A program made the translations under genes and the position numbers. A stretch of DNA of 64,000 nucleotides from Halococcus saccharolyticus DSM 5350. Its GTDB lineage: Archaea; Halobacteriota; Halobacteria; Halobacteriales; Halococcaceae. The DNA is taken from NCBI RefSeq assembly GCF_000336915.1, contig NZ_AOMD01000016.1:71084-135083 (forward strand), in the 5' to 3' direction. Numbering within the stretch: the first letter of the stretch is position 1; each line of letters begins with the position of its first letter. Under the pieces are notes generated by a model. That model was not told the origin of the DNA. It saw only the letters and a program-made list of their open reading frames with translations, and did not search any database. Shown here piece after piece: positions 7,678 to 58,083 of this stretch.

Positions 7678-8912
7678 AGATAACCGAGGTCCCGCAGTCG
7701 GGCGTCGATGTCGAGTCGTTCGGCGTCACCGAGTTCCTCGGTCGGGAGGTGGCGTTGCAGCCGCGACGCCAGCCGGTCGGCCTCGATCGGGGCGAGCTCT
7801 CGGGGATCGGCGTCGAGATCGTAGAGCTCTGCATCCCACTCGCGGTCGGGGTACTCTACGTACTTCGCACCGTCATGGCGGATCGCGCGCGCCCAGTTGC
7901 GCGTGCGATGGAGCGACGCACCGCACGCCCGCATGTACGCCGGACGGTCGGTAACTCCGTCCGCCGGCAGGAGCGCTTCGCCGTCCATTCCGACGTCGAT
8001 ATCGATGTCGAGTGCCGCGAGTAACGTCGGGAGAACGTCGATCTGCCGGGTCTGGGCGGTGATCGTCGCAGGGTCGATCCCCGGCCCGGAGAGGAGGAAG
8101 GGGACGTTGGTCGCGAAGTCGAAAACGTTCTCACCGTGGCCGTTTTCGAGGAAATGATCGGCGATGTCGGGGCCGACCCCATCGAGCGAACGATTCAATC
8201 GGCCGACCACGGCGCGAGTGTCGACGCCGCCGTAGTACCGGACGGCGTCGCGGACGCTCTTGCCGAGAAGTCGGAGCGGGTTGTGGCGGTGGGTGATGCT
8301 CTCACCGTGATCGCCGTGGATCGCGACGAGGGTGTTCTCGGGAAGTGCCTCGACCAGATCCTGGAGCTCCCGATCGAGCGCGCTGAGCGCACGGGTGTAT
8401 CCAGTGTCGCCGTAAGCCGGTTCGTCGTATTCAGCAGGTACGTCGATGTCTTCGTGGAGCTCCCACAAGTGGACGAACGCCGCGAACGGCTCCGGAAGCC
8501 CCGCGAGCCGGTCGTGCGCAGTCTCGCGCCAGTCGCCGAACAGCGACCGGTCCTCCTCGCGGTGGCGGTAGACATCGAACCCCCGATCGAGATCAGTCTC
8601 TGCGACCAGCGGGCCGGTGACGAGTGCTTCGGTGTGCCAGCCGTGTTCGGCGAGGATTCCGGGGAACGTCGAGATCTCGGGGTCGAGCCGACCGTGCTGG
8701 AGCGAGTGGACGCCGTTGCGCTCGGAGTACGAGCCCGTGAGGAGGCTCGCGACTGCGGGCGTCGTCGTGGTCGCGGTCGCGAAGAGCTGCTCGCAGGCGA
8801 GTCCCGATGCTCTGAAATCGTCGAGAAACGGCGTGTCGGACGCGCTCGACGCGAGGCAGTCCTCACGGAGACAGTCGACACAGAGCACGAGGAGGTTCGG
8901 TTTCGAGGGCAC
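7674..8912 (-). CDS. sulfatase / alkaline-phosphatase superfamily hydrolase
   Basis: A 412-residue cytosolic-looking member of the sulfatase branch of the alkaline phosphatase superfamily (no signal peptide). Metal-binding and core motifs are visible: C-V-D-C-L-R-E-D at the N-terminus, T-T-P-A-V-A-S-L-L-T-G where the nucleophile sits (residues about 48-60), and I-H-G-D-H-G-E near residue 200. Sulfatases need a Cys or Ser in [CS]-x-P-x-R for conversion to formylglycine. Here the position is Thr and the Arg is missing, so it should not be a classical sulfatase and fits better with phosphotransfer enzymes that use Thr. The final residues (R-L-R-D-L-G-Y-L) resemble the end of the neighbouring alkaline-phosphatase-fold protein (R-L-K-S-L-G-Y-A). 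Confidence 0.85.
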   Translation of the reverse strand: MPSKPNLLVLCVDCLREDCLASSASDTPFLDDFRASGLACEQLFATATTTTPAVASLLTGSYSERNGVHSLQHGRLDPEISTFPGILAEHGWHTEALVTGPLVAETDLDRGFDVYRHREEDRSLFGDWRETAHDRLAGLPEPFAAFVHLWELHEDIDVPAEYDEPAYGDTGYTRALSALDRELQDLVEALPENTLVAIHGDHGESITHRHNPLRLLGKSVRDAVRYYGGVDTRAVVGRLNRSLDGVGPDIADHFLENGHGENVFDFATNVPFLLSGPGIDPATITAQTRQIDVLPTLLAALDIDIDVGMDGEALLPADGVTDRPAYMRACGASLHRTRNWARAIRHDGAKYVEYPDREWDAELYDLDADPRELAPIEADRLASRLQRHLPTEELGDAERLDIDARLRDLGYL

Positions 8913-8980
8913 GGCTACTGTCCGGGATGGTGGCTCCGGCGGTCAAGGACTTTCCGGAGTCGGGTCGGTTGGCGGGCGAG

Positions 8981-9354
8981 CGGTAGCGGTTCGGTTGCGG
9001 GCCTCGGCGGATCGAGGGCGAGGCGAACGAGCGTAGCGAGTGAGCCGAGGGCTCGGGCGGTGCTGTGCGGTCAGCGGTTGTGTGGCGGTAGTGTAGCGGT
9101 CGCGGAGAGCGCCAGTGTTCTCACGCGAGCGAGGCGAAGCCGAGCGAGCGGGAGTTTTTCATGAACGTTCGTTAGAGCGGAGCTCTAACGCAGCCCATCA
9201 GAAGTCTTCGACTTCTGAGGACGTTTTTGCAAGCCGAGCGGGACGGCGGAGCCGTCCCGCTGGCCGTGCGAGCGGGCCTTCGGCCCGCGAGCAGACGGGG
9301 GTCGCGCGAACGAACGAAGTGAGTGAGCGCGATCCCCCCGCAGTAAAAAGGTTC
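8981..9354 (-). repeat. dispersed hairpin repeat, copy A
   Basis: Copy A fills the gap after the alkaline-phosphatase-fold gene ending at 9355. Read on the minus strand it starts with the oligo-T tract (9345-9349). Hairpin H1 is at 9302-9332 (14-pair stem with two tandem G.A pairs, GAA loop at 9316-9318). A block of palindromes follows (9237-9261, 9272-9288, 9198-9218, 9170-9190, all with 3-nt loops), then H2 at 9124-9150 and H3 at 9022-9046. The G.A version of each stem is on the plus strand. The piece 9160-9232 is nearly identical to 23432-23514 in copy C. Confidence 0.75.
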
Positions 9355-10269
9355 TCAGGCGTATCCGAGCGACTTGAGACGTGCGGCGGTCGTACCGCTG
9401 GTCGCAGTGGCATCGTACTGTGCGGGTTCGTGGACCCGACGATCGGTCGCGGTGGTCTTGCACCACGGCACTTCCCGGAGGCAGGGGAGCGCGACGCCCT
9501 CGGCGTGGCCGTAGAGCCCCGCTTCACCTACGGCATTGCCGTGGTCTGCGGTCACGACCACCCGATCGGCGTCGACATGATCGAGCAGGAGCTGTACCTC
9601 GTCGAGCACGTACTCGAGGTTCGCTCGATAGCTCTCCCAGACCTCGCTCTCGGTCCGCTGGCCGAAGCGGAGCTCCTCCCAGACCGACATCGATTCGTCG
9701 CCGAACTCGTCGAGGGTGACGCCCGTATCGCGGTCGCCGTCGGGGATCGAGGGGAAGTGTGGCTGCATGTAGTGGACCACCATCCGATCGAACGAGCGCT
9801 CGCGGCCGACGGCGATGGTGCGGTCGGTCAGCGGTCGTGCGGGGATCGTTCCCAACTCGTCGTCCCACGCGTACCGCCAGACCTCGTCGACGAGGCCGAA
9901 CGCTTCCTCGTCGAGATGGGATTCGGAGTAAGGGTTGCCCGTGATGTACGCCGTATCGCGGAGGTCGTCGGGGTCGGCGTCGCCGAAGACGCCTTCGATC
10001 CATTCGGTCGAGGTACTGCCCGCCGAAATCCGCGACTCGCCGCCGTAGAGGCCGTCGTAGCTCCCGTCAGCGACCACCTCGTCGAAGAGGTCGGCCCGGC
10101 ACGCGTCGAGGACGATCAACAGGTCCCAGTCCTCGGCGTAGACGGGGTCGGGATCGACGGAGGGCACCGTTCCGAAGTACGCTCGCGAGAGGAACTCCCG
10201 GATGACGTCGGGCCCACCGTGACGGAGATTACGGTAGGCGTCGGCGACGTGCCGCCCGAGTCTGCGCAT
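9355..10269 (-). CDS. alkaline-phosphatase-fold hydrolase/transferase
   Basis: A 304-residue protein of the alkaline phosphatase superfamily. Motifs: L-L-I-V-L-D-A-C-R-A-D (first metal Asp), S-A-G-S-T-S-T-E-W near residue 82 (nucleophile Ser/Thr region), V-V-T-A-D-H-G-N (Asp-His metal ligands) and Y-G-H-A-E-G (third His). There is no signal peptide or membrane span. Haloarchaeal members of this group are often linked to surface glycan or phospho-sugar chemistry, but no substrate is shown here. The ATG at 10269 has a TATA-like box in the AT-rich stretch around 10295-10305. Its stop codon is directly followed by dispersed repeat copy A. Confidence 0.82.
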   Translation of the reverse strand: MRRLGRHVADAYRNLRHGGPDVIREFLSRAYFGTVPSVDPDPVYAEDWDLLIVLDACRADLFDEVVADGSYDGLYGGESRISAGSTSTEWIEGVFGDADPDDLRDTAYITGNPYSESHLDEEAFGLVDEVWRYAWDDELGTIPARPLTDRTIAVGRERSFDRMVVHYMQPHFPSIPDGDRDTGVTLDEFGDESMSVWEELRFGQRTESEVWESYRANLEYVLDEVQLLLDHVDADRVVVTADHGNAVGEAGLYGHAEGVALPCLREVPWCKTTATDRRVHEPAQYDATATSGTTAARLKSLGYA

Positions 10270-10460: not shown

Positions 10461-10663
10461 GTGGTATTGCGGTGCGGACCTGGTGGATGAAGGGCGAGTG
10501 AGCGAAGCGAACGAGGGCTTCTGCGGTGCTGTGCGGTTGCGGAGTGTGTCAGTAATCGTACCGTGAACGAGGCCGGAGGCCGAGTGAGCGGGTGTTTTTG
10601 ATGAACCTTTTTGCGAGGAGTGGTGTGCGAGCGTAGCGAGCGCACCCGACGACGTAAAAAGGT
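10461..10663 (-). repeat. dispersed hairpin repeat, copy B
   Basis: Copy B abuts the stop codon of the PAN gene (10664). Read on the minus strand it begins with a T5 tract (10656-10660). H1 is at 10622-10646 (10-pair stem with one tandem G.A, 5-nt loop), H2 at 10562-10590 (13-pair stem, two tandem G.A motifs, GGA loop) and H3 at 10495-10515 (9-pair stem, two tandem G.A motifs, GAA loop). G.A pairing is on the plus strand. Between H2 and H3 it keeps the common C-rich segment (minus-strand reading GCACAGCACCGCAGAAGCC). Confidence 0.75.
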
Positions 10664-11878
10664 TCAGGCGAAGGTTTTGGTGACTTCGTCGGACTCCTCG
10701 TCCTCGGCCTCGATCTTCGTCCACGCTTCGTCGAAATCGGCCATCCGGACCTCGGTGCGGTCGTCCCGGATGGCGAACATCCCGGCCTCAGTGCAGACAG
10801 CCTTGATGTCCGCGCCGCTGGCGTCGGTCGCGTTCGCCGCGAGGTCACCGAAGTCGACATCGTCGGCGAGATTCATGTCCTGAGTGTGGATCGCGAAGAT
10901 CTTCTCGCGCCCCTCGGCGTCGGGTTTGGGAACTTCGATGAGCCGATCGAACCGACCGGGACGGAGGATGGCGCGATCGAGCATGTCGAAGCGGTTGGTG
11001 GCGGCGATGATCCGGATCTCGCCGCGCTCCTCGAACCCATCCATCTCGCTGAGGAGCTGCATCATCGTGCGCTGGACCTCGGCGTCGCCCGACGTTTTGG
11101 AGTCGGTGCGTTTGGAGGCGATCGCGTCGATCTCGTCGATGAAGATCACCGCGGGCTCGTGCTCGCGGGCAACCTCGAAGAGATCCCGGACGAGTTTCGC
11201 GCCCTCGCCGATGAACTTGTGGACGAGCTCCGAGCCCGCCATCTTGATGAAGGTCGCGTCGGTCTGGTTCGCGACCGCCTTCGCGAGCATCGTCTTCCCC
11301 GTCCCGGGCGGACCGTGGAGCAGCACACCCGATGGGGGCTGGATGCCGACGTCGTCGAACATCTCGGGACTTTCGAGGGGGAGCTCGACGGTCTCGCGCA
11401 CCTCGTTCATCTGTTCTGCGAGGCCGCCGATGTCGTCGTAGTTCACTCCGGGGCTCTCCTCGACTTCCATCACGCGTGCCCGGACATCGGTCTCGTCCGA
11501 GAGGTCGGTCACCACGGAGAGGGAGTTGTTGACCGCGACACGGGAGCCGGGTTCGAGCTTCTCGCGGAGTTCGTCGGTGACCTCGGTGAGCGCCTCCTGG
11601 TTGTTGCCGTGCTGTTTGATGATGACGCCGTCCTCGGCGACTTCTTGGACCGTGGCGACGAACAGCGGCGACTGCTTCAGCTTCTTGTTCTCGTGGTTGA
11701 GCCGTTCGAGCTTCTGCTGGTACTTGTTGTTCTCGGCGTTCGCATCCAACAGTTTGTCGCGCATCTCCTCGTTCTGGGCGTCGAGGATGTCGATGCGATC
11801 TTCGAGCGACTCGATCTTCTCCTGGTGTGAGGCGTCGGTATCGTACGGTTGCTCCACGTCGTCCACCGTATCGGTCAT
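10664..11878 (-). CDS. pan: proteasome-activating nucleotidase PAN
   Basis: A 404-residue AAA ATPase that forms the hexameric unfolding cap of the archaeal 20S proteasome. Seen in order: an N-terminal coiled coil (residues about 17-70), an OB domain (about 72-140), Walker A G-P-P-G-T-G-K-T near residue 190, Walker B V-I-F-I-D-E-I-D, the second region of homology with I-L-R-P-G-R-F-D-R, and the AAA lid. The C-terminus is T-F-A: Phe is at the position of Tyr in the hydrophobic-Tyr-X tail that docks into the 20S ring, a mild departure. The ATG at 11878 follows a TATA-like TCTTATGA by about 27 bases. Repeat copy B starts right after the stop. Confidence 0.96.
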
Positions 11879-23376: not shown

Positions 23377-23825
23377 ACCTTTTTACTGTGGGGGTGCGCT
23401 CGCTCGTTTCACTCGCTCGCCCACCCTCGCTTGCAAAAACATCCTCAGAAGTCTTCGACTTCTGATGGGCTGCGTTAGAGCTCCGCTCTAACGAACGTTC
23501 ATGAAAAACACCCGTTCACTCGCGCCTCCGGCGCTCGTTCACGGTACAATACTGACACACTCCGCAACCACCCTGCAACCGCATAGCACCGCCGAAGCCC
23601 TCGGCGTCTCACGCGAGCGGAGCGAGCGTGAGGGTCGTCGTGGAGCGAAGCGGAACGACGGCGCGCGCTCACTCCGTTCGCTCGCGTGCTTCGCCCTTCA
23701 TCCGCCGGGAGAGCAAAGCTCTCCCGAGCCTCGACTCGCTTCGCTCGTCGAGACGCCAGGACCGCCCCGCACAGCACCGCCGTCCGCCTCACACTGCACC
23801 GCAGACCGCACCGCACCACCCCGCT
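23377..23825 (+). repeat. dispersed hairpin repeat, copy C
   Basis: Copy C begins at the base after the polB stop with ACC and a T5 tract (23380-23384). H1 is at 23393-23425 (14-pair stem, two tandem mismatches, 5-nt loop). The palindromes 23445-23465 and 23473-23493 are shared with copy A. H2 is at 23513-23543 (14-pair stem, two tandem mismatches). H3 at 23608-23632 has an 11-pair stem with GGA loop whose G.A face is on the plus strand, opposite to H1 and H2. A 9-bp-arm hairpin with AAA loop follows at 23706-23726. It is the longest copy and ends in a C-rich tail about 150 bases before sufC. Confidence 0.75.
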
Positions 23826-35400: not shown

Positions 35401-35440
35401 GTGATCCCCTACCGGCTGGCGCGTACTGAACATTACGATG

Positions 35441-35725
35441 CACCTTTTTACTTCGTCGGGTGCGCTCGCTCCGCTCACGCATCACTCCCCGCAAAAATCT
35501 GCACCAAAAACACTCGCACACTCGCCTACGGCTCGTTCGCGGTACAACCCACTTGTCCACCGTACCACGACCGTAAACTGCACAATACCCCCGAACCCTC
35601 GGTCACTCACTTCGTTCTCGTGAGCGAAGCGAACGAGAGCTCGGAGCGCGCAGCGCGTGCTCCGGCGTTCGTGGCCTCGCCCTTCATCCGCCAGGCCCGC
35701 ACCACAGCCGCCGCTCCAGAGCGCA
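35441..35725 (+). repeat. dispersed hairpin repeat, copy D
   Basis: Copy D has the same order of modules as the others: T5 tract (35445-35449), H1 at 35462-35480 (8-pair stem, one tandem mismatch, loop GGA on the minus strand), a GCAAAAA box, H2 around 35516-35540 (loop GTA on the minus strand, one extra A.C mismatch), the C-rich segment, and the CCTTCATCCGCCAGGCCCGC tail. Unlike the other five it does not follow a stop codon: its T-tract end faces the start of the halocyanin gene. No clean H3 is seen. Confidence 0.7.
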
Positions 35726-47665: not shown

Positions 47666-47739
47666 GGGCCAATAGCTCAGTTAGGTTGAGCGCTCGGCTG
47701 ATAACCGGGAGGTCCGCGGTTCAAATCCGCGTTGGCCCA
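47666..47739 (+). tRNA. tRNA-Ile (anticodon GAT)
   Basis: A 74-base cloverleaf: acceptor GGGCCAA with TTGGCCC plus discriminator A, D-arm GCTCAGTTAGGTTGAGC, anticodon stem CTCGG/CCGGG enclosing the loop CTGATAA (anticodon GAT), and T-arm GCGG-TTCAAAT-CCGC. CCA is not encoded and I see no intron. Its last 23 bases are duplicated 140 bases downstream. Confidence 0.95.
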
Positions 47740-47882
47740 TTTTCCTACGTAAATCGACGAACGAAGAGGGTCCGATGAGCGTCGAAAATACAACCGAGCG
47801 GATTTGAGCCCTGCCAGTCGCAGCCGACGAACGAAGTGAGTCGGATCGTCTGGCTCCGGTTCAAATCCGCGTTGGCCCATTT
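47740..47882 (+). repeat. tRNA-Ile-end duplicate with G.A hairpin
   Basis: The 3' end of tRNA-Ile plus three flanking bases (47717-47742) recurs as a perfect 26-bp copy at 47857-47882. Between them 47824-47844 folds as a 9-pair stem (arms CCGACGAAC and GTGAGTCGG) with a tandem G.A pair and a GAA loop. A shorter inverted T-arm-like piece (GCGGATTTGAGCCC) lies near 47799-47812. No gene is contained. Confidence 0.65.
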
Positions 47883-48833: not shown

Positions 48834-49143
48834 CACCACTTTTTACTGCGTCGGGTCTCCTCGCTCGTCGGCTTCGCCGACTCGCTGCGGGGACCACTCC
48901 TTGTAAAAACCTGGACTAAAAACACCCGCTCGTTCGCCTTCGGCTCACTCACGGCGAACCGCGCTCGCTCCGCTCGCGCGGACGGTCTCCACTACCCCGC
49001 ACCACGACCGCAAACCGCACAACACCGCCGAAGCCCTCAACTGCTCGCTTCGCTCGCAGTTTCACCCTTCATCTGCCAGGCCCGCCCCGCAACCGCGCCG
49101 CCCCGTAGCCGCACCGCTCCCGCAGCCGCCCTGCAACCGCACG
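48834..49143 (+). repeat. dispersed hairpin repeat, copy E
   Basis: It starts within a few bases of a stop codon (48829-48831), with a T5 tract at 48840-48844. H1 is at 48863-48885 (10-pair stem, six pairs above the tandem mismatch), followed by TAAAAACCTGGACTAAAAAC shared with copy F. H2 is at 48930-48950 and H3 at 49039-49061 (10-pair stem with one tandem mismatch). For all three the G.A face and a GAA loop are on the minus strand. It ends in a C-rich tail about 50 bases before the next gene. Confidence 0.75.
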
Positions 49144-53283: not shown

Positions 53284-53397
53284 ACGCCGGGACGGGGATC
53301 TGAACTCGTCGAGACGTGCTCGCTACGCTGCGCGCGACTCGTCTACTCAAATCCCCCGTTTCCGGGCTTCAGCCGCTCACTTCGTTCGCGTCAGAAA
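53284..53397 (-). repeat. tRNA-Ser-end duplicate with G.A hairpin
   Basis: The 3' end of tRNA-Ser and its flank (from 53396 upward, reading AACGCCGGGACGGGGAT on the plus strand) recur at 53284-53305 with one mismatch. On the minus strand 53374-53390 folds as a 7-pair stem (CGCGAAC / GTGAGCG) with a tandem G.A pair and a GAA loop, six bases from the true tRNA end. Confidence 0.6.
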
Positions 53398-53478
53398 CGC
53401 CGGGACGGGGATTTGAACCCCGGATCCCAAAGGGAACACGCTTTCCAGGCGTGCGCCTTACCACTCGGCCATCCCGGC
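53398..53478 (-). tRNA. tRNA-Ser (anticodon GGA)
   Basis: A class II tRNA of 81 bases with a long variable arm (GTTCCCTTTGGGATC). The acceptor GCCGGGA pairs with TCCCGGC plus discriminator G, the anticodon stem CACGC/GCGTG encloses the loop CTGGAAA (anticodon GGA), and the T-arm is CGGGG-TTCAAAT-CCCCG. CCA is not encoded. A duplicate of its 3' end lies 113 bases further downstream. Confidence 0.94.
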
Positions 53479-55726: not shown

Positions 55727-55975
55727 ATGAGGCGTCGCCGCGCGGCCAGCGGCGGTGCGGTTGCGGGGCGGACGCGGCCCTGGTGGATCGAGGGCGAGGA
55801 CGCGATCAGCGGGAGCGTCCGAGGGCTCGGGCGGTGCTGTGCGGTTGCGGAGAGAGCTAGCGATCGCACCGCGAGCGAACGAAGTGAGCGAGCGGGTGTT
55901 TTTAGTCCAGGTTTTTGGACGGGGTTCGAGGCGAGCGAAGCGAGCCGAGGACCCCGTCGAAAAAAGTGGGTGTTT
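55727..55975 (-). repeat. dispersed hairpin repeat, copy F
   Basis: Copy F starts at the base after the citrate synthase stop, with a T6 tract (55960-55965). H1 at 55918-55958 is the longest stem of the family: 19 pairs with two tandem G.A motifs and a GAA loop at 55937-55939. H2 is at 55869-55895 (12 pairs, two tandem G.A motifs, GAA loop). G.A faces are on the plus strand. Between H1 and H2 it shares the CCTGGACTAAAAACACCCGC segment (minus strand) with copy E. The H3 position has an ordinary GGACGC/GCGTCC inverted repeat instead. Confidence 0.75.
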
Positions 55976-57192: not shown

Positions 57193-57594
57193 TCACTGGT
57201 ACGTTTCGAGCGTGACGCCGGGAATCGTCCCGAAATGTGAATCGCCAGCGAGAACGGGTTCGTCGCGTTCGATGGCGGTTGCGGCGATTGCGGCATCGGC
57301 TTTCCCGATACCGGGACCGTCGTCGTCATCCGCGAGGCGCTCGCCGAGGAGTCGCCCGGCACGCCGAGCAATGCGCGGGCTCATCTCCACCAGTGGGTAC
57401 GAATCCAACACCGTCTCGACGGTTCGACGTTCTCCGGGGGAGTTCGCTACCTTTCCGACGCCGATGCAGAGTTCCAGCACGGTCATCGCGGGCATGACGA
57501 GTGGGACACCCTCGGCTTCGAGTTCGCGCTCCATCGAGACGGCCGCCTCCACGTCGTCGATGACATCCAGGACGAAGCTCGTATCGACGATCAT
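57193..57594 (-). CDS. vapC: VapC-type PIN-domain toxin
   Basis: A 133-residue PIN-domain protein. The acidic residues that bind Mg are seen in I-V-D-T-S-F-V-L-D (D3), V-L-E-L-C-I-G (Glu near residue 41) and G-K-A-D-A-A-I-A-A-T (Asp near 100), with a last Asp in L-A-G-D-S-H-F. This is the VapC ribonuclease toxin fold. Its start overlaps the stop of the antitoxin gene in the order ATGA, the standard toxin-antitoxin arrangement. Confidence 0.85.
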   Translation of the reverse strand: MIVDTSFVLDVIDDVEAAVSMERELEAEGVPLVMPAMTVLELCIGVGKVANSPGERRTVETVLDSYPLVEMSPRIARRAGRLLGERLADDDDGPGIGKADAAIAATAIERDEPVLAGDSHFGTIPGVTLETYQ

Positions 57595-57821
57595 TCGAAT
57601 CGGTCGGCGACCTCGCGGACCGCCTTGCGGTCTCGGTCGTCGGCAGCGTCGATGGCCTCGCGCATCGCGGCCACCTCGCTCCCCTCGAACACGTCACGGA
57701 GGTCACGCAACGACCGGCCACCGATGAGTCGCTCGACAGCTTCGCTGAACGACTCGTCGTCGCGTTTGTTCGACCGGATGCGCTCGTACACGTGGTCCTG
57801 GAGTCGGATCTGTTGTGACAT
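57591..57821 (-). CDS. vapB: VapB-type antitoxin
   Basis: A 76-residue antitoxin. The N-terminal part Q-I-R-L-Q-D-H-V-Y-E-R-I-R-S-N-K-R-D-D-E resembles the haloarchaeal antitoxin family with a ribbon-helix-helix-like start, and S-F-S-E-A-V-E-R-L-I-G follows. The C-terminal half is an acidic helix (A-M-R-E-A-I-D-A-A-D-D-R-D-R) likely to wrap the toxin. The ATG at 57821 was chosen because the frame to 57914 lacks any conserved residues before it. It is the first gene of the pair. Confidence 0.8.
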   Translation of the reverse strand: MSQQIRLQDHVYERIRSNKRDDESFSEAVERLIGGRSLRDLRDVFEGSEVAAMREAIDAADDRDRKAVREVADRFE

Positions 57822-57925: not shown

Positions 57926-58008
57926 GAATGGACTCGTCGGGACCGAGCGAACGCTGCGCGTTCGCGAGGGTCGACGAGGGAACGACTGAGCGAACGTAGT
58001 GAGCGAAG
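57926..58008 (+). repeat. tRNA-Ala-end duplicate with two hairpins
   Basis: GAATGGACTCGTCGGGA occurs at 57926-57942 and again at 58009-58025, where it is the reverse complement of the tRNA-Ala 3' end. The 66 bases between hold two hairpins: 57947-57965 (8-bp perfect arms, loop GCA on the minus strand) and 57986-58008 (10-pair stem with two tandem G.A motifs, loop GTA on the plus strand), the second ending at the base before the duplicate. Confidence 0.65.
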
Positions 58009-58011
58009 GAA

Positions 58012-58083
58012 TGGACTCGTCGGGATTTGAACCCGAGGCCTTCCCCGTGCCAGGGGGATGATCTACCACTGATCTACGAGCCC
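58012..58083 (-). tRNA. tRNA-Ala (anticodon GGC)
   Basis: A 72-base cloverleaf: acceptor GGGCTCG with CGAGTCC (one G.U pair) plus discriminator A, D-arm AGATCAGTGGTAGATCA, anticodon stem TCCCC/GGGGA enclosing the loop CTGGCAC (anticodon GGC), and T-arm TCGGG-TTCAAAT-CCCGA. CCA is not encoded. The 17-base duplicate of its 3' end lies 83 bases away. Confidence 0.94.

Follow-up and report, generated by a model that had tools for sequence, protein, structure and literature searches.

The tRNA-Ala(GGC) gene of Halococcus saccharolyticus DSM 5350 is followed by a short stretch of DNA that lies between two direct repeats and is almost entirely taken up by hairpins, raising the question of what this stretch is and how it came to lie at the end of a tRNA gene. 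The 83-bp unit, located in a 64,000-nucleotide stretch of DNA (the window), is a member (type A) of a haloarchaea-specific family of non-coding hairpin cassettes found at tRNA gene ends, apparently without any enzyme gene of their own. On balance, the best explanation is that the cassettes insert site-specifically but are non-autonomous, with IntSNJ2-type integrases as their probable movers.

Architecture of the unit at tRNA-Ala(GGC)

The original prediction described a compact cassette made up of repeat, hairpin, hairpin and repeat. The 17-bp direct repeats (GAATGGACTCGTCGGGA) were exact and 100% identical with 66 bases between them, and both predicted stems were present. The 10-pair stem contains four G.A pairs and abuts the right repeat, and the cassette separates a vapBC operon (PF01850 and PF02697) from the tRNA as proposed. 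The features, in order of position, are as follows.

57193 to 57821, minus strand: vapBC, beyond the cassette, with the VapC PIN toxin at 57193-57594 and the VapB antitoxin at 57591-57821
57926 to 57942, minus strand: left repeat, a displaced second copy of the tRNA 3' end; its inner half is the 3' arm (tRNA sense) of a long hairpin
57939 to 57973, minus strand: conserved core hairpin, type A (tRNA sense CGACCYTCGCRAA...TTYGCTCRGTCCC), with an apical, perfect 8-bp stem at 57947-57965 (GCGAACGC, 57947-57954, and GCGTTCGC, 57958-57965; loop TGC on the plus and GCA on the minus strand)
57972 to 57978, minus strand: inverted copy of the tRNA acceptor 3' strand (CTCGTCG, tRNA sense), partner of 57933-57939
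57986 to 58008, plus strand: G.A-containing hairpin CTGAGCGAAC (57986-57995), loop GTA, GTGAGCGAAG (57999-58008), filling the spacer beside the tRNA end
58009 to 58025, minus strand: right repeat, the tRNA 3' end (T-stem 3' half and acceptor 3' strand) plus 3 bases past the gene
58012 to 58083, minus strand: tRNA-Ala(GGC), the target, with its 3' end (...TCCCGACGAGTCCA) forming the right repeat

Since the right repeat belongs to tRNA-Ala(GGC) as its 3' end, only the left copy is extra, downstream of the tRNA. The gene itself is intact (69.7 bits, full model), and no third tRNA-end copy bounding vapBC (57193-57821) was found. The predicted architecture recurs across copies, with two corrections: the right repeat is the tRNA end itself, and the left one also belongs to the second hairpin. 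Read in the tRNA sense, the tRNA end TCCCGACGAGTCCA is followed by a CT-rich spacer (the complement of which folds with G.A pairs), CTCGTCG, the core CGACC-CTC-GCGAACGC-GCA-GCGTTCGC-TC-GGT-CCC, and then GACGAGTCCA again. A pairing overlooked in the original prediction joins CTCGTCG at 57933-57939 with CGACGAG at 57972-57978 and ACC at 57942-57944 with GGT at 57969-57971, giving one interrupted hairpin (57933-57978). CTCGTCG inverts the sequence of the acceptor 3' strand, and the second tRNA-end copy, the left repeat, is therefore an arm of this long hairpin. Fold scores for 57933-57978 were z = -2.95 for DNA on the minus strand, z = -2.21 on the plus strand and z = -2.47 for RNA, with the long interrupted fold preferred by both DNA strands and by RNA. 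A search of the window against Rfam matched only tRNAs and an S15 leader and assigned the cassette to no family; likewise, no match was obtained for 11 further loci that have copies of the core. The leader is S15-Halobacteria RNA (RF03143, 58175-58235), located upstream of rps15, and tRNA-Ala and rps15 are neighbors in many relatives.

At least two cassette types were recognized, A at tRNA-Ala and B at tRNA-Ile and tRNA-Ser; of the four tRNAs in the window, three have a cassette. In type B (about 113-180 bp), a hairpin is followed by an inverted T-arm, an inner hairpin, and then a copy of the T-arm and acceptor. Two are found in the window:

47740 to 47879, plus strand: type B cassette after tRNA-Ile (47666-47739), with the 3' end copy at 47866-47879
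53285 to 53397, minus strand: type B cassette after tRNA-Ser(GGA) (53398-53478, minus strand), with the 3' end copy at 53285-53298

Recurrence at tRNA 3' ends

The check put forward with the original prediction, a query of other haloarchaeal genomes with the unit, was strongly positive and supports that prediction: full-length homologues turned up at tRNA 3' ends throughout the order. Some match to the unit was present in 37 of 60 relatives, with full-length matches in several families and nearly all of these at tRNA 3' ends. A 96-bp homologue at tRNA-Ala(CGC) in the same genome (84% identity, E 4e-24) represents a near-complete unit in which the tRNA end, the outer copy and the inverted arm all have G/C where the window unit has A/T. 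Recurrence of a near-complete copy at this second tRNA and in many relatives indicates that the unit did not arise by chance. A search of 293 haloarchaeal genomes for the core hairpin (GGGACYGAGCRAA-loop-TTYGCGARGGTCG, searched as GGGACYGAGCRAAN{3,16}TTYGCGARGGTCG) gave 103 copies, spread over 56 genomes and 21 of 87 genera, and the reversed pattern gave no match in the same set. When 84,980 species genomes were scanned, 78 stretches with the core were returned, all of them haloarchaeal. The exact core was absent from viral contigs, and phage records contained no DNA similar to the cassette, both of which count against the explanation favored here. The plasmid search produced one short match in a Salinibaculum plasmid; other plasmid matches, from bacteria, cover the tRNA part only and were rejected as ordinary tRNA similarity.

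Most copies were located at tRNA 3' ends, 82 of the 96 distinct core copies examined lying within 1 kb downstream of a tRNA, always in the same orientation, and 3 more lying 4-14 kb from a tRNA, behind an island. Targets comprise 15 anticodon species among the Ala, Arg, Gly, Lys, Glu, Asp, Ser, Leu and Gln tRNAs. Over the first nine bases past the core, the sequence is identical to the 3' end of the copy's own tRNA in 62/85 cases and differs by one base in a further 14/85 (76/85 with at most one mismatch), and the own isotype was the best fit in 81/85 (shuffled labels: mean 33, maximum 46). The fit of the inner arms is good at Ala, Arg(CCT) and Gln tRNAs and weaker or lacking at several others, where another hairpin precedes the core. 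Direct copies of a tRNA's own 3' 12-mer within 400 bp were found downstream of 8 of the 32 tRNAs tested in the window's genome and upstream of none. Across haloarchaea, 41 of 106 tRNAs had such a downstream copy, a rate biased by the choice of some genera for their known cassettes, with 0 upstream and 0/37 among non-haloarchaeal relatives. Sizes recur, the copies clustering at about 63-79 and 98-137 nt. On the strength of the three controls (reversed pattern, upstream regions and non-haloarchaeal relatives), a chance origin was rejected.

Probable insertion, candidate integrase and possible origin of the arms

Insertion of the cassettes at tRNA ends is very likely. Under the proposed mechanism, palindrome-built non-coding cassettes of roughly 80-180 bp would insert site-specifically at tRNA 3' ends in haloarchaea. 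A cassette terminus that copies the 3' end of the target would leave the tRNA intact, the former tRNA 3' end would become the downstream outer repeat, and repeated insertions would build arrays. At the tRNA-Ile site, the 140-bp type B cassette is present in the window's genome (G000) and in G003, and the site is empty in G007. The G003 flank following the distal copy aligns with the G007 flank following tRNA-Ile from base 4 (score 253 vs 29 for shuffled sequence). In G007 (contig C84, L324 / L332), two identical tRNA-Ile genes lie 102 bp apart with N bases between them, possibly an assembly artefact. Arrays of 0-4 cassettes with varying A/B order occur at tRNA-Arg(CCT) in genus g20 and at tRNA-Ala in genus g28, many of these loci having downstream DNA in common; a clean pair of empty and filled sites for type A was sought in these two genera and not found. 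At tRNA-Ala, the cassette-free congeners G001, G004, G005 and G009 have GACGAGTCCA, and the cassette-bearing G002, G003 and G007 have GGCGAGTCCA in the tRNA end with GACGAGTCCA in the displaced copy, as would be expected if insertion brought a new 3' end. The change presumably ran from GAC to GGC, and tRNA mutation could explain it as an alternative to cassette delivery. In the window's own genome, GAC is found in both the tRNA end and the displaced copy.

Given the lack of a gene in the cassettes, a recombinase would have to act in trans. Three islands of 4.2, 6.0 and 13.6 kb (L135, L136 and L137 in genomes G020, G046 and G041) lie between tRNA-Ala and a distal tRNA-end copy plus cassette, and each has a tyrosine integrase gene (PF02899 and PF00589) beside the distal copy, that of L136 at 8735-9769; the few other island genes scanned gave no clear Pfam match. 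Such an integrase is a neighbor at about 8 core loci, the cassettes as a rule neither encoding nor adjoining one. For the one island integrase searched, the best match among phage records was the SNJ2 integrase (43.7% identical). Next to its integrase gene, the SNJ2 genome has TCCCGTCAGGGCCC, which corresponds to the tRNA segment found in the type A repeats, and the att sites of IntSNJ2-type elements comprise 13-14 bp at the tRNA end (PMC8371274). Islands at the same tRNA ends, the SNJ2-like integrase and the use of the same tRNA segment as att make an IntSNJ2-type enzyme the first candidate mover, by analogy. A haloarchaeal SNJ2-type tyrosine integrase would then act in trans on the repeats as att cores, with the hairpins serving as recognition or folded-DNA substrates. 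Whether this integrase step applies is about evenly balanced.

For 53 copies aligned without gaps, covariation scored 0.290, compared with 0.109 for shuffled and at most 0.090 for slid alignments; the evidence comes from the free positions only, since the search pattern fixed part of the core. Varying stem positions are almost purely Watson-Crick: columns 23/37 are GC in 38 copies and AT in 15, with no G-U, and columns 26/34 are Watson-Crick in 52 copies, in four types, with 1 G-U. Where the tRNA acceptor has a G.U pair, 32/42 arm positions agree with the DNA complement of the 3' strand and 5/42 with the tRNA 5' strand. The arms thus lack the G.U partner, and an RNA-level tRNA mimic is disfavored. 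Core similarity was 0.738 within a genus across different isotypes vs 0.628 for the same isotype across genera (0/300 permutations); cores group by host genus, and isotype-specific cassette lineages were rejected.

Cores that follow the genus, arms that fit the local tRNA and the 32/42 agreement with the DNA complement together suggest that the arms were copied from the 3' strand of the target, seemingly during or after insertion through fold-back synthesis, template switching or conversion. Genus-following cores with locally fitted arms would not be expected from simple transfer by an integrase. It is conceivable, if unlikely, that only the core hairpin is mobile, inserting at TCCC of the T-stem, with self-primed fold-back synthesis then making an inverted copy of the target 3' strand. 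Such target-templated arm-making would explain the genus-following cores, the local-tRNA arms, the DNA 3'-strand copies and the Watson-Crick changes. Concerted evolution after insertion, by conversion or template switching, is a possible alternative source of fitted arms.

Alternative explanations and known elements

The cassettes may instead be relics, i.e. scars of decayed tRNA-targeting integrative elements or of att-att deletion, their hairpins being leftover att-flanking DNA. Genuine integrase islands do occur at the same tRNAs, and partial tRNAs beside full ones are part of the account of Haloferax gibbonsii (PMC7921747). Random decay, however, would not account for a single 35-bp core, with covarying stems, shared by 15 tRNA species, and the recurrent sizes (about 63-79 and 98-137 nt) and mixed A/B arrays also argue against this explanation, which is considered improbable.

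About a dozen core copies lie away from tRNAs; at least some of these are located where an IS605-type element has its 3' end. Most of nine non-tRNA copies (Halobacterium group, G080; L195-L198, L205, L204, L219, L220 and L139) are in the context CCCCTTTCA(G/T)TCCC-hairpin-core-GTCCC, and the copy at L197 lies behind a TnpB (IS605 OrfB) gene (PF01385 and PF07282). These copies keep open a mobilizer like that of PATE or IS605 elements. The cassettes would then be relatives of PATE, SMR or IS200/IS605 ends, and a Y1 transposase or the SMR machinery would move them in single-stranded form into TCCC of hairpin-forming DNA (T-arms and transposon ends). In agreement with this, SMR-A is described as an element of about 110 bp that is palindromic, mobilized by unknown means and targeted to PATE palindromes (PMC3119063), and hybrids resemble a hairpin-core module set at TCCC of the T-arm copy of a B cassette. 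The cassettes also have the near-terminal palindromes and lack the coding capacity of such elements. As described for SMR and IS605-type elements, however, no target is duplicated (PMC3119063), whereas a second tRNA-end copy of 14-24 bp bounds the tRNA cassettes, and in an unsystematic look at ORFs a transposase gene was not seen as a regular neighbor of the tRNA copies. An origin of this kind is considered improbable for the family.

Stable folds, stem covariation and the fixed orientation relative to the tRNA would suit a conserved, structured tRNA 3' trailer (a terminator or processing element) under selection, with tRNA-end copies made by local tandem duplication and conversion, but this is very improbable given presence or absence among congeners at one tRNA, absence from most tRNAs, the near lack of G-U at varying stem positions (26/34: 1/53; 23/37: 0/53), arms that follow the DNA 3'-strand complement (32/42) over the tRNA 5' strand (5/42) at acceptor G.U positions, and the lack of an Rfam match.

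Integron gene cassettes offer a possible functional analogy: they too are small units that stack at one place and terminate in a folded site for recombination (the attC hairpin). The tRNA-end cassettes differ in having no ORF, with 66 bp between the repeats, and in having a tRNA gene as target. Haloarchaea are already known to have integrated elements at the 3' ends of tRNAs, remnants of tRNAs and transposase-free palindromic repeats (PMC3119063, PMC7921747, PMC8371274). IntSNJ2-type elements (SNJ2, HHPV4, HRPV9 and genomic islands) use the same target segment as the cassettes (tRNA 3' end, TCCC plus acceptor, 13-14 bp; PMC8371274), and direct tRNA-end repeats and islands at the same tRNAs are common to both. 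In the window unit, the 17-bp repeats, with TCCCGACGAGTCCA in common with the tRNA, reach the length of at least 13-14 bp typical of such elements, but the 66 bp between them are too short for an integrase gene, and the unit is not classed as a member. The cassettes further differ from IntSNJ2-type elements in being 80-180 bp long, gene-free, built of two hairpins and stacked in arrays, and in having tRNA-end copies in both orientations, inverted and direct. As characterized in Haloquadratum, PATE and SMR elements are, like the cassettes, palindromic, non-coding and transposase-free, with several families of about 50-110 bp (PMC3119063). They are described as chromosome-wide and without target duplication, whereas most of the cassettes are confined to tRNA 3' ends and include a copy of the tRNA end. 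In Haloferax gibbonsii (PMC7921747) and Haloquadratum (PMC3119063), partial tRNA remnants are described as linked to integrated elements, and these descriptions include no recurrent hairpin cassette.

No recurrent tRNA-end hairpin cassette with tRNA-matched arms was found described in the open-access literature searched, including that on non-autonomous tRNA elements and archaeal integrons. The findings show that many haloarchaeal tRNA tails are occupied by an ordered, recurrent family of tiny cassettes rather than by random remnants. As marks of natural integration sites, the cassettes could serve as minimal substrates for haloarchaeal integrases, and they may mislead the annotation of partial tRNAs and integration sites. 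They also pose the puzzle of how an enzyme-less hairpin gains arms complementary to whichever tRNA precedes it.

Other repeats were observed in the window. A GAGCGAACGnAGTGAGCGA-like G.A hairpin motif has 6 matches vs 0.24 expected (9308, 23665, 29309, 55873 and 57988), one such hairpin directly abutting the 5' end of tRNA-Gln. A dispersed family of GAGCGGGTGTTTTTAGTCCAGGTTTTTGG-like repeats with GA hairpins is found at 10581-10666, 35439-35524, 48893-48941 and 55886-55945, with copies up to 88% identical, and an inverted repeat pair of 94 nt (9141-9234 and 23429-23522) is 93% complementary over a distance of 14 kb.
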